From assembly GCA_963921795.1 (NCBI GenBank), contig OY997652.1:63810529-63874528 (forward strand): a stretch of DNA of 64,000 nt. Direction: 5' to 3'. Shown here one piece after another: positions 11,958 through 63,723 of this stretch. The translations under genes were made by a program, and so were the position numbers. The first letter of the stretch is position 1, and every line of letters starts with the position of its first letter. The DNA is from Nannobrachium achirus (Eukaryota > Chordata > Actinopteri > Myctophiformes > Myctophidae). Below the pieces are notes generated by a model. The model did no database searches. It was not told the origin of the DNA and saw only the letters and a program-made list of their open reading frames with translations.

Positions 11958-12411
11958 ACAAGTGCACGTGCACACATAGACACCAAAGGGGGCGTGAGGC
12001 TTGAGCCCCTGCCCTTTTAACCTGTCTGTAAAAAGTGCCCTCTCCAGAACATGAATGCAGTTTTTACTATGGTGAAAGAAATGCAAATGCCTCTCTTTCC
12101 ATGTCATACCTGAAGGCAGCGTTCAAGAGAATTATCTTGTCCTCTCCTGAACATGAATGCATGCATCTTATGTTGAAAGAATTGCCCTCTCTGTGTAGAA
12201 ATACATGCAGTAAACCACATCTCCAGTATTCACTTGATTATGCTTAGTTTAGAGTGGTACATACAAAAAAAATAAAATAAAAGACGACCTCCAAGCTTAC
12301 AACGCGTCGCGTTGTAAGCTTGGAGGTCTGCTATTTTCAATAGTTTCACCAAAAGGCCCTTTTATAAATTTCAGCCCCTGCCTCTCTAACATTCTCTGCG
12401 CGTCCCTGGAC
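11958..12411. mobile_element. Family L hAT-like element carrying the shared palindrome
   Basis: It begins AAGTGCACGTGCACACATAG and ends CATTCTCTGCGCGTCCCTGG. The interior phrases AAAGTGCCCTCTC and TTTCAGCCCCTGCCTCT recur in the copies at about 21.7, 25.9 and 40.5 kb. The 25883-26168 copy has a perfect 8-bp target duplication, which supports hAT affiliation. Confidence 0.65.
12283..12338. repeat. Shared palindrome P1 (in family L)
   Basis: GACCTCCAAGCTTACAACGC is followed immediately by its complement, then TCTGCTATTTTC. The hairpin is nearly perfect with essentially no loop. Confidence 0.9.
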
Positions 12412-12889
12412 TAGTGTGTAGAACCGGCCTCAGGTCTTAATGGGATAAGAAATACTATAGCGGAAGGACAATGACAGGGTCTATAGTGGTCGATGCTCTC
12501 TTCATGCTGGAAGTACCATGGGATTTATTCTAGGAGGCATGTTGTAGGGTAGAAACCTTGTATGTCCAAGACTGTTCATTTTGTATTTATCATTTAAAAA
12601 ATCAAACCTCGGTTCGAATTGAAGCGGTGGACAGATAAAACTTCTATTCTGAATGTATTTGGAGAGCTGGTATGACAGTTGGTATAATAGGTTTAAAAAA
12701 TAAAATAGATTAAAACACATACATTAAAATAAGAATTTGTAATTAAATACATACATAAATAAATATAAAGTGTTTAAATAAGACAGATAAACCCTGAAGG
12801 CCAAATTATCATGTGAAGCTTGACCAATCCTCAAAGTATCCATTCATCTGACCGGGAGGGACACCGCACACATATTCTAGATGTACAGG

Positions 12890-13205
12890 ACATATAAAGC
12901 CTATTCATTCTGAACTGAAATGACCATAAGGTCATTTCAGTTCAGAATGAATATGGACATGGGACACACATTTTGCTTTTTTGAAAAAGCCTATTCATTC
13001 TGGACTGATATTTTACACGTACAGGACAGGAAAAACCTGTTCATTCTGGCCTGGAGTGACCATATATGGACAAATAAGGTAACGGACATTCTGTTTTTGA
13101 AAAACCCTGTTCATTCTGGACTGAGATCACCATATATGGTAATTAAACGGACATTCTGTTTTTGAAAAAGCCTGTTCATTCTGGACTGAAATGACCATAT
13201 ATGGG
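12890..13205. repeat. Tandem repeat, ~80-bp units ending in CATTCTGGACTGAAATGACC, with a palindrome
   Basis: Four diverged units share AAAGCCTGTTCATTCTGGAC and CCATATATGG. The first unit includes a near-perfect inverted repeat at 12903-12951 (CATTCTGAACTGAAATGACC and complement, 4-base spacer). Confidence 0.75.
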
Positions 13206-13242
13206 CGTGATACACACAAAATTCCACCGCTTCAAAAAGCTT

Positions 13243-13319
13243 GTGAAAACAGGCGATCTACAAGCACACAACGCCTCGCGCCGCGAGGCGTTGTGTGCTT
13301 GTAGATCGGCTGTTTTCAC
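13243..13319. repeat. Shared palindrome P2 (in family G)
   Basis: GTGAAAACAGGCGATCTACA leads into AGCACACAACGCCTCGCG and its complement. The family G version has AAAACAG and AAGCACAC where other families have AAAATAG and AAGCTCAC. Confidence 0.92.
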
Positions 13320-13718
13320 TACCTTTGTTGCGACGGCCTTGTATGATGAAGCAGGGCTTTACTTTGCGAAAGTAAAGCAAATTTGAAACTTGGAGATACG
13401 AGGCTTCTGCACGACAGTGACGATATGCTGTGAATGGCTACGGGCTAACGAGTGAAGCCTGATCTGTACTTTGTTACGTTGCCTCTGTCTCTCACAAAAA
13501 CAGAGCTGATCCTCGACGCGCCGCGGGTTTGTAGATTGGCACATTTCCGGGGGGTGCCAGACAGCGGAAACGGCGAGCCCGCCAGTAACCATGAACCAGA
13601 CATAAGAGGGATGAATCTCTATTGTTTGTATTTCATTTTCTTGTGCAAAGGGAAAAACAAAACTTTTATTTCACGACGGAAAATGATGAAACTCGGGAGT
13701 GAGAGATAACCTTTAATG

Positions 13719-13815
13719 GTGTGTGTGTGTGTGTGTGTGTGTGTGTGTGTGTGTGTGTGTGTGTGTGTGTGTGTGTGTGTGTGTGTGTGCGTGTGTGCGT
13801 GTGCGTGTGTGCGCA
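13719..13815. repeat. (GT)n microsatellite
   Basis: A long uninterrupted GT run that becomes imperfect (GTGCGTGT) at its 3' end. The His/Thr-rich open frame on the opposite strand is an artefact of it. Confidence 0.95.
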
Positions 13816-13829
13816 GTGCACCCACGCTC

Positions 13830-14220
13830 ACTAGCCATTAACCTGAGGAAAATAGACACAAACCCATGAGTCACCACCAAAACAATTTTGTTTCAATTAG
13901 GTTAGTGCGGAATAAAAGATTGTTTTGGGAAAGTAATTTGCGAGCAATGACCGTAATATAATTTCAAGGAGGGGAGCTGTGAGAGCACACAAATGTAATT
14001 CAAGAAACAGATACAGATAAGACACGGCTTGATTGCAGACGCACCGCTGTGCTGAGGGCCACAAATATGTTAAACGTGTATATATGATGTATTATTGTGA
14101 TATATGGAAATAGAAAAATGTCATTAGACATTTAAATGGCAATATCCTTGATGCATATGATTACTATGACGTATAAATAATGTCTATTTAGATAGATGAT
14201 AGTTGTGTTATTCAGATTTA
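13830..14220. other. No recognisable feature
   Basis: AT-rich sequence without repeats or coding signal that I can identify. Confidence 0.35.
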
Positions 14221-61796: not shown

Positions 61797-62030
61797 CTCC
61801 TTGTCTATCTATTTTAGAATACATTTTAAGGTCCTCCCTCTATCGCGGAACTCGTGGAACCCTACTTGCCAGTCAGGGCTCTGAGGTCCGCTGGAAATGT
61901 GCAGTCCGACATCTCATTACCACGTGGCGGTTAGGGCAGGGGTCGGCAAGCAGGGGCATCACACCAAATTCTGGGCCCTGGGTACAAGGATACTTTGTGG
62001 GCCCCCCCCCCCCCATGAATGTTAACTATT

Positions 62031-62105
62031 GAAAAATAGCAGATATACAAGCTCACAGCGCGGCACCGAGTGCCGCGCTGCGAGCTTGTAGATCTGCTAT
62101 TTTTG
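62031..62105. repeat. Shared palindrome P43 (E4, left)
   Basis: GAAAAATAGCAGATATACAA then GCTCACAGCGCGGCACCGAG and complement. Confidence 0.96.
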
Positions 62106-62273
62106 AAAAATCGTGAAAATGTGTGCAAGAAAGCTATGTTTCTATGTCAGTGGTGCTCAAACTTTTTCATGTCAAGGACCCTCAAGATGATATGTATTTG
62201 CCCCATTTCAAAATATTTAGTTCCAGGGACCCCCCAGAAGCAAAATTTGAGTTACAAATGTTCACGACTTTTC

Positions 62274-62338
62274 AAAAATAGCAGATCTACTGTACAAGCT
62301 TGCAAGCTTGCTGTGAGCTTGTATATCTGCTATTTTTC
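62274..62338. repeat. Shared palindrome P44 (E4, right), altered apex
   Basis: AAAAATAGCAGATCTACTGT then ACAAGCTTGCAAGCTTGCTG, ending TATATCTGCTATTTTT. Confidence 0.9.
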
Positions 62339-62878
62339 AATAGCTAAAGTTACTAGGGCCCCTCCACCTTGGGCCCTAGTAACTCAGTCCCACTCCCCCC
62401 CCCCTTGTGACGCCCCTCTCTGCAACCCGCGGCTCTAGAGCCACATCTCTTTAGTCCCTCCCTAGTGGCTTCCTGTAGCTTTACCAAAAATATTATGGAA
62501 TTTAACAATGTTTTTTTGTTATTATTATTTTTTTTTTTACATTTACATTCCTCGTTGCTAGTAGGCCAAATATGGAACATACATTTTTATGTGCTCCAAT
62601 ATTGTACACATTTTGTAGAATAAATAAGAAGTTCATCCCTGTCGATTAAAATTCATAGTCTGAGACACATTTATTATTGATTGCTGCTACATTATGGATT
62701 CCACATGCAAAACTGAGGAAAAAACGAGAATGTAATAGTTTGTGGACTGGACAGTCGTTTGCTTTCCCTGCCAGTGCTGCTGGATTAACTGTTAGTTTGA
62801 TAAATATATGTTTTGCGGCTCCAGACAGATTTTGTATGTATTTCTTTTTTTCTTTTAAGCTTGCAGACCCCTGGGTTA

Positions 62879-63204
62879 AGTCCTTTGCACACAGGCGCGT
62901 TTAACCGCACGGATACAACGGACAATATAATTTTTTGAAAAGAAAACAATGAGTCTCTATGACCTCATGCACACCGGCTCCGAATTAGCCGTGCGACGAG
63001 TGGCTGCCGCCGTGCGTTTTTTTTCTCGATCGAACCCAGTTCGATTCGTGCGTCTTGTCGCATGCGGTAAAAAACTCATCACTCCTTTTATGACTCCTTT
63101 TTGGATCCGCAGCGCCGATTCCGCACAGCCTTGCACACCAAATCCAATGCGTTTTATTCATGCCGCAAACGGAAAAAACGCAACTGTCCTGTGTGCAAAG
63201 GGCT
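62879..63204. mobile_element. PIF/Harbinger-like MITE
   Basis: TTA at 62876-62878 and 63205-63207. Inverted ends AGTCCTTTGCACACAGGCGC and GTCCTGTGTGCAAAGGGCT. 326 bp. The 130-codon frame starting at 62949 is largely inside it and has no transposase motif. Confidence 0.85.
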
Positions 63205-63255
63205 TTAGGGTTAGGGATAGGGTTAGTAATGGGGCGAACCGCTCAAACACAACAT

Positions 63256-63723
63256 CAGTGTTGTTTTTGACAGCAGATTTTAATTTAGTTTTAGTCATAG
63301 TGTTTTTAATAAAATGTCATTTAGTTGTAGTCATAATTTAGTCACCTGAAAGGTTTTAGTTTTAGTCTAGTTTTAGTTGATCATAAGATTTAAGGCGACT
63401 AAATCTACAGTTGATTTAGTCAACTAAAATGTATTTTTGCAGGCCTTGATGGAAATGTTAAAATACATTTTATACAAGACTGATTTTACACTTGTTTGCG
63501 TGCTGAAAATAGCCAATCTACAAGCTCACAATGCTCACAATGCCAGAGAGCAACCAAACATAAAATGACACTCTTCTCCACTAGTTTTATTTTTTTGATG
63601 AAATTGTCAATATATTTAGTCTTAGTTTTACTCATCACAGCTTGGTTTTTATTTTGTTTTTGTCAGTGAAAAAAACGCAGTCGTTATTTTTCGTCATAGT
63701 TTTAGTCGACAAAATCAACACTG
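63256..63723. mobile_element. Family J hAT MITE (J2)
   Basis: CAGTGTTGTTTTTGACAGCA ... GTCGACAAAATCAACACTG, flanked by CACAACAT and CGCAACAT (7 of 8). Interior of TTAGTTTTAGTC words, with half a palindrome at the centre. Confidence 0.9.
63503..63545. repeat. Shared palindrome P45, left half (in J2)
   Basis: GAAAATAGCCAATCTACAAG then CTCACAATGCTCACAATGCC. The right arm is missing. Confidence 0.85.

Follow-up and report, generated by a model that had tools for sequence, protein, structure and literature searches.

A palindrome of about 73 bp, here called the module, is shared by several families of short hAT-like transposons that differ in their ends in the genome of Nannobrachium achirus (Myctophidae). 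We analysed it in a 64,000-nt stretch of contig OY997652.1 (assembly GCA_963921795.1, positions 63,810,529–63,874,528 of the forward strand), hereafter the window, and in the genome as a whole. We propose, giving this explanation an even chance, that the module is a non-coding palindromic cassette of common origin that was captured separately into several nonautonomous hAT lineages and amplified by the ends of its hosts.

Searching the window for the arm GAAAATAGCNGATCTACAAG at ≤3 mismatches gave 55 matches, whereas shuffled sequences gave 0.01 on average and 1 at most. Grouping of arms at ≤5 mismatches yielded 46 candidate places, which correspond to about 40–42 palindrome copies, some of them weak. 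Here, the arms at 37187 and 39379 were counted once, as two halves of one copy with a 2184-bp insertion between them, and the candidates at 13511, 45775 and 46576 were left out as probable chance matches. The initial annotation of the window had counted 45 copies, close to the about 42 obtained here; the range that it had given, beginning at 12283, does contain copies, and others lie upstream of it, at 11411 and (weakly) at 7596. A full copy is typically 73 bp long, with two 35-nt arms and a 3-nt loop. From the outside inward, each arm comprises a base of ~5 bp, in many contexts symmetric and differing in sequence by family, then AAAATAGCNGATCTACAAGCTCACAACGC or near variants, and then a tip of family-specific sequence in which symmetry is kept; the conserved stretch of each arm is ~28 nt. 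Folding of six copies as single-stranded DNA gave z-scores of −9.5 to −16.7, and a covariance model found 75 matches in the window at E ≤ 0.05 (both strands counted), some of which are other inverted repeats.

A genome scan with the palindrome, as proposed in the initial annotation, confirmed its recurrence: the arm at ≤1 mismatch matched 591,775 times (296,046 forward and 295,729 reverse) in 1,658,514,493 bases on 564 contigs, whereas the reversed-pattern control gave 0 and 1 matches. Twenty 10-kb stretches, taken at round (not random) coordinates from the first 15 contigs (65–90 Mb each), contained 44 arm pairs and, in addition, 55 half arms, all at ≤4 mismatches. At ≤1 mismatch the number of arms was 77, where 71.4 were expected from the genome count. 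Scaling of this 200-kb sample gives ~365,000 arm pairs genome-wide (95% interval 182,000–572,000), which at 73 bp each amount to ~27 Mb or ~1.6% of the genome, an approximate figure, since not every pair is full-length and half arms were not counted. Pair density in the window (26 pairs in 64 kb) is about twice that of the sample. Scanned for exact matches, viral and prokaryotic contig collections yielded no copy of the palindrome. Near the start of one contig (G000:C1, ~26.7–34.6 kb; L001–L004), a palindrome-bearing hAT-like unit occurs four times within ~8 kb; by eye, the four units are nearly identical, and they have another pair of ends.

Host elements in the window were defined by matching CA-starting ends and 8-bp duplications; a loose automatic search for terminal inverted repeats (TIRs) and target-site duplications (TSDs) gave mainly noise. 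Under this rule, ten hAT-like elements were recognized: seven with palindromes, one with nested copies (37201–39384) and two without. The TIRs of the seven palindrome-bearing elements start with CAG (starts being demanded by the rule) and match at 11–12 of 12 end bases, their 8-bp TSDs are perfect in three cases, 7/8 in three and 6/8 in one, and five of the seven elements are only 382–530 bp long. A Pfam scan of 10 of the 27 long open reading frames of the window gave no hAT match; in the genome, at least 150 matches to the hAT dimerisation domain were found (150 of 1,653 candidates scored), some in long open frames. The seven elements have six end types, CAGGGGTCTTCA, CAGTGGTTCTCA, CAGGGACGTGCT, CAGTGTTGTTTT, CAGTGTTGGGCA and the weaker CAGGGGTCGGCA, and an additional family, d, starts with CAGTGGTG. 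The statement in the initial annotation that palindrome hosts differ in their termini is upheld by these seven elements, six of which have good duplications. Not every pair of families is unrelated, because the ends of families a and g are alike by eye and those of family e are like z. The position of the module within its hosts varies, and family beta holds two. The palindrome is frequently broken, with collapsed examples in the window.

Some further elements of the window bear on the hosts. In family beta (24610–25052, 55065–55601, 58516–58778 and 62011–62358), the two palindromes lie in inverted arms, with an inner hAT-like segment in either orientation. The element at 37201–39384 is a 2184-bp hAT-like element (CAGTGATGGGCA) with a perfect 8-bp TSD, GGCGTTAT, inserted near the tip of a palindrome. 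The hAT-like elements at 27246–28625 and 42203–43569 (~1.37 kb) have perfect duplications and no palindrome.

Module edges and family d

Between families the edge of the module is sharp, and similarity ends within one or two bases. Averaged across 643 arm pairs from different families, identity falls from 0.84 at the first A of AAAATAGC to 0.42 at its outer neighbour; further out it is mostly 0.22–0.34, about background, with one position at 0.41. Within families, both sides still match for ~5 bases beyond the edge. Flanks of different families showed no in-register homology, the high scorers being simple repeats or neighbouring insertions, and 193 arms fell into 72 flank components. The internal region is thus more conserved between families than the ends are, as in the coral elements discussed below. 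An apparent better preservation of the module than of its flanks within families was discarded, as the arms had been chosen for consensus similarity.

The flanks next to the edge are often symmetric. In 25 contexts with good arms, drawn from 43 contexts and 78 pairs, the first six flank bases gave 102 matches out of 150 (null mean 50.8, maximum 77 in 2000 shuffles). As the 25 include several variants of a single family, the test was redone with 14 hand-collapsed contexts; of 84 positions, 56 matched, where 5000 shuffles gave a mean of 30.4 and at most 49. Direct duplications of ≥4 bp at the module edges were found in none of the 25 contexts and in none of the 14, so the symmetric extension is not a target duplication; 3-bp direct repeats are in slight excess (3 versus 0.5 in the 25 contexts, and 2 versus 0.15 in the 14). 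Inheritance of longer arms was rejected as an explanation of the symmetric flanks, because cross-family identity there is mostly at background. As its sequence is family-specific, the base probably dates from each acquisition or from a later time.

Family d provides a comparison of forms with and without the module. Its left-half motif occurs at 5,478 genome sites at ≤2 mismatches. Among 12 family d loci with an exact internal motif, eight lack an arm between −300 and +500, a ninth (L035) carries an arm on the upstream side alone, and in the other three (L032, L037 and L040) arms follow 61–103 bases downstream. Past CCCATTTCA, the module form of d continues into a different filler and then into the module, and each of six loci chosen by this filler bears an arm, with two of the six bearing both. 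Two of the module-free loci, L033 and L039, carry a CAGTGGTGG-like end and align with module-bearing d copies on both sides, with E = 1e-18 and 3e-14 to the left and E = 2e-9 and 5e-10 to the right. Judged from these alignments, family d (CAGTGGTGG ends) exists in two states, one with the module and one lacking it. In at least two loci another sequence stands at the place of module and filler, so the module was not simply dropped in; the module-free form, which is rare and diverged, is presumably the older one. The initial annotation had named, as support for independent acquisition, many flank families that exist with and without the module at a precise junction: one family in both states, d, was found. 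No clean empty site was found, and in d filler accompanies the module. In L032, and nearly so in L043, TTTTCAAATG stands in both the left filler and the right flank in the same orientation; this may be a trace of capture, and it is not present in every copy.

Several observations weigh against capture. Presence and absence of the module were seen in one family, and the match on both sides in two loci only. Choice of loci by the exact motif favours the module-free variant, because the module form mostly reads GTCCC at this place. In four further loci, L031, L034, L036 and L038, the left match continues past the motif, while the right side gives no match or a weak one (for L036 the right side scored 34, the null maximum being 30.5); in L030 the match covers 42 bp, and in L029 hardly more than the motif. 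The genome counts of 4,651 sites for the module-form filler and 83 for one module-free continuation are indicative only, because the two patterns differ in length (26 versus 31 specified bases) and the second does not capture other module-free sequences. Most module-lacking copies in the window look like palindrome deletions rather than empty sites: apparent empty sites at 20517, 38330–38480 and 20140–20420 were rejected and counted as deletions because arm pieces remain (26060 is ambiguous). Finally, no donor intermediate or young insertion was seen.

Proposed capture and its alternatives

We suggest that capture would begin with a broken or internally deleted miniature inverted-repeat transposable element (MITE) under repair, in which the polymerase switches template to a module elsewhere. 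Palindromes favour template switching. Template switching or filler copying during the birth or rebuilding of a MITE would most probably account for the acquisition, and a short fold-back copying step at capture would fit the family-specific symmetric base, although insertion at short inverted repeats would leave the same picture. After capture, the MITE would move by means of its own ends and a hAT transposase, its presumed partner. We infer that the module was gained rather than lost, that repair provided the mechanism and that the same holds for other families. More tentatively, and well short of an even chance, the module may be a selfish passenger that has neither genes nor ends of its own, is copied into MITEs during repair, makes the lineages carrying it more successful and has in this way reached ~1.6% of the genome.

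It is possible, although unlikely, that there was one ancestral MITE with the palindrome, and that the families arose by exchange or replacement of terminal segments around the module as the retained centre. Composites do exist, such as L025 (window 24177, minus strand), in which the left end of family a is joined to other sequence, and family beta with its differing inner segments. The module is also present in most left-end hits (8/12 for family a, 8/9 for g and 4/5 for z) and in right-end hits (7/7, 1/1 and 4/6, respectively). The left-end proportions fit a constant module with changing flanks; they also fit capture at or before the birth of a family rather than steady colonisation. Seven exceptions that were inspected are composites, interrupted or truncated copies, one copy cut by the end of the locus and one other, at 21016 in the window, which departs from the z sequence after ~110 bp. 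The two module-free d loci that share both sides with the module form speak against terminal exchange, and the rarity and divergence of the module-free d form, as counted, suggest gain within an existing family.

A selected role of the hairpin in propagation, be it in transposition, replication restart or gap repair, is compatible with capture; we regard it, too, as rather improbable. In an alignment of 18 copies, 86.9% of 710 cells are paired, changes on both sides occur in 21 of 40 pairs, and family-specific double changes are present. Cells changed on both sides number 67, compared with 30.8 in shuffles (0 of 500 reach 67) and 9–20 in slid-partner controls, but these cells are not independent events, because six of the 18 copies belong to family beta. 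Such an excess would be expected of a selected hairpin, as would the likeness of the conserved stretch across families and the predominance of the module form at d sites (4,651 versus 83). However, further pair types are not above shuffles in the same alignment (37 versus 35.4; 155 of 500), and hitch-hiking accounts equally for the abundance. Moreover, the two arms of a copy do not agree with each other significantly better than with arms from other copies of the family (116 mismatches in 33 copies versus 123.6 on permutation, with 702 of 5000 permutations as low), so that nothing was seen to maintain single copies after insertion. Family z alone leans towards within-copy matching (3.0 versus 4.8 mismatches), and beta leans the opposite way. 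Ongoing arm correction in single copies is unsupported by this permutation test. The arms therefore match at the level of the family and not of the single copy: both-side changes build up in multiplying lineages, and single copies decay freely, a pattern in keeping with selection acting on propagating masters or with a palindrome renewed when a lineage is founded. The selected function in hAT MITE propagation that the initial annotation had offered is possible rather than demonstrated: the module form is far commoner, yet matching of arms within a copy does not significantly exceed what family membership predicts.

Still less probable is that the palindrome is itself mobile and inserts into transposons, like the hairpin elements of some mitochondrial genomes. 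Its many contexts (72 flank components, 193 arms) would agree with this, the context-specific symmetric base (56/84) could reflect insertion into short inverted repeats, and 3-bp direct repeats are slightly in excess (2 versus 0.15). Against self-movement stand the lack of any direct duplication of ≥4 bp at the edges and of a clean empty site among the copies examined, and the filler that accompanies the module in d. Of the copied module colonising other transposons that had been envisaged from the window, sharing among elements with differing ends, the sharp edge and one family in both states are supported, and self-movement is not.

Alternatively, the palindrome could consist of two ends of a different transposon joined head to head, and the many half arms (55 in 200 kb) might speak for this; it is very improbable, given that among the interiors beside 56 half arms the only groups are six pairs (local duplicates, flanks of known families and two unclassified pairs) and that break points are spread, 15 of 57 reaching the loop. 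With no other recurring interior, the unit looks like the whole palindrome. Equally remote is an RNA hairpin, microRNA-like or otherwise structured, selected in transcripts: the fold is stable (DNA energies were used) and precursor-sized, but the window has 0 Rfam matches at gathering score, and mismatches show no G-T excess in the family orientation (17 G-T, 36 A-C), from which the transcript orientation may differ.

Annotated features of the window

Table 1 Palindromes and palindrome-bearing elements, in window coordinates
Positions	Strand	Feature	Evidence
22030–22506	+	hAT MITE, family a, TIR CAGGGGTCTTCA	TIR 11/12, TSD CTGTACAA/CCGTACAA
22282–22354	.	Palindrome in family a copy	Arm match, folding, covariance model
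47266–47647	+	hAT MITE, family a, half-deleted palindrome (arm 47517–47536)	TSD GGTTAGGA/GGTTAGGA
59364–59435	.	Palindrome in family a copy	Arm grouping, covariance model
34190–34585	+	hAT MITE, family g, TIR CAGTGGTTCTCA	TSD CTTTACAC/CTTTACGC
34275–34345	.	Palindrome in family g, symmetric base ATTGTG	Arm grouping, folding
37653–37725	.	Palindrome in family g copy, nested within 37201–39384	Arm grouping, covariance model
44847–44917	.	Palindrome in family g copy	Arm grouping, covariance model
60806–60855	.	Shortened palindrome, family g copy, centre missing	Arm grouping
37151–37200	+	Split family g palindrome, left half	TSD GGCGTTAT on both sides of 37201–39384
39385–39415	+	Split family g palindrome, right half	Other side of 37201–39384 insertion
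61267–61796	+	hAT MITE, family z, TIR CAGGGACGTGCT	TSD CTCCTTGT/CTCCTTGT
61483–61550	.	Palindrome in family z copy	Arm grouping, covariance model
13245–13317	.	Palindrome, z-related copy, one flank different	Arm grouping, folding
63256–63723	+	hAT MITE, family h, TIR CAGTGTTGTTTT, half palindrome 63505–63524	TSD CACAACAT/CGCAACAT
32737–33935	+	hAT element, TIR CAGTGTTGGGCA, diverged palindrome 33683–33763 inside	TSD CCTATACT/CCTATACT
16351–16423	.	Palindrome in family d, base TGTTTG	Element 16138–16598 minus, TIR CAGTGGTG
54396–54468	.	Palindrome in family d copy	Arm grouping
32691–32710	+	Leftover left arm, family d copy (CAGTGGTG end at 32510)	
38330–38480	-	Family d copy, palindrome reduced to outer left arm	Arm pieces retained
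24631–25031	.	Family beta, palindromes 24631–24703 and 24959–25031 in inverted 128-nt arms	
31696–31768	.	Family beta palindrome; second one of the element collapsed near 32004–32044	
55088–55578	.	Family beta, palindromes 55088–55160 and 55506–55578	
58516–58778	.	Family beta, shortened palindromes 58516–58577 and 58729–58778	
61937–62873	+	Element, maybe nested; beta palindromes 62032–62104 and 62274–62337	Weak TSD (6/8)
21801–21874	.	Palindrome in family e; further copies near 12266–12347 and 40668–40687	
51493–51851	.	Palindrome remnants 51493–51512 and 51832–51851, apparently split by an inverted-repeat insertion, family h-like	
39807–39880	.	Diverged palindrome, family not identified	Arm grouping and covariance model
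14925–15006	.	Diverged palindrome, family not identified	Arm grouping and covariance model
44632–44687	.	Palindrome, base ATAGTG, family not identified	Arm grouping

Apart from these features, the window contains pieces of a kelch-repeat gene, most like KLHDC3, at 3581–4551 (minus strand). Arrays of 16-bp tandem repeats (CATTAGTCCGAAGGTT) occur as inverted pairs around ~60 bases at 30942–31123 and 4798–4952, and also in L008, and form a separate recurrent structure. A weak match, below the curated cut-off, to a reverse transcriptase zinc-binding region at 28370–29023 (minus strand) is perhaps the remnant of a long interspersed nuclear element. In L019, near 8033, a run of N lies beside a half arm.

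Comparison with known systems

The success of MITEs is usually ascribed to their ends and an available transposase. An internal hairpin that crosses families, together with one family in two states, makes hairpin-driven amplification of MITEs and the acquisition of a new centre testable. For annotation, it carries the risk that different MITE families are merged through the module, at hundreds of thousands of copies. Near-perfect palindromes are fragile, and given this fragility the abundance of the module matters for genome rearrangement.

Six 14-base strings of the module had no occurrence in the literature text searched, and a search in print for the idea of such a module turned up the precedents given here, most subscription papers and repeat databases lying outside the search. 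Bacterial REPINs are short palindromic units of high copy number that are mobilised by a dedicated transposase. They resemble the module as short high-copy palindromes, but no dedicated transposase partner is known for the palindrome described here. Zebrafish Angel MITEs were reportedly described by Izsvak et al. in 1999. Angel elements share the likeness of a single-strand fold-back, and amplification through the fold has reportedly been proposed for them (PMC12628747; PMC2579443); Angel is described as one element, in contrast to a module common to several families, a comparison made by description only. The hAT MITEs at inversion breakpoints of Atlantic cod are likewise nonautonomous teleost hAT elements with internal inverted repeats (PMC12368964), but these repeats are in tandem, in one element and a subfamily, and the part of that account available describes no common module. 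Short hairpin or palindromic sequences described as invading or mobile are also known from mitochondria, namely repetitive hairpin elements in sponges (PMC2800124) and a mobile DNA family in yeast (PMC4478555); those repeats lie in organelle genomes, whereas the copies here lie inside nuclear DNA transposons.

The nearest precedent is provided by the CMITEs of Acropora corals, which, according to the available text, have different terminal repeats and a common internal region of ~75 bp that is more alike than the ends (PMC2872659). Both systems thus have a core conserved above the ends and families with different termini. The origin of the CMITE core is given there as unknown, with a role in transposition and capture by transduplication suggested (PMC2872659). 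CMITEs are piggyBac-like, with TTAA duplications, a length of ~100 bp and an estimated 1600 copies in A. millepora, and their core is not called a palindrome in the text available (PMC2872659). Unlike them, the elements described here have hAT-type ends, 8-bp duplications and hundreds of thousands of copies; their palindromes are off-centre and sometimes double, and the flanks of most families lack detectable homology to one another. The module resembles the CMITE principle, with another superfamily, another duplication and far more copies.

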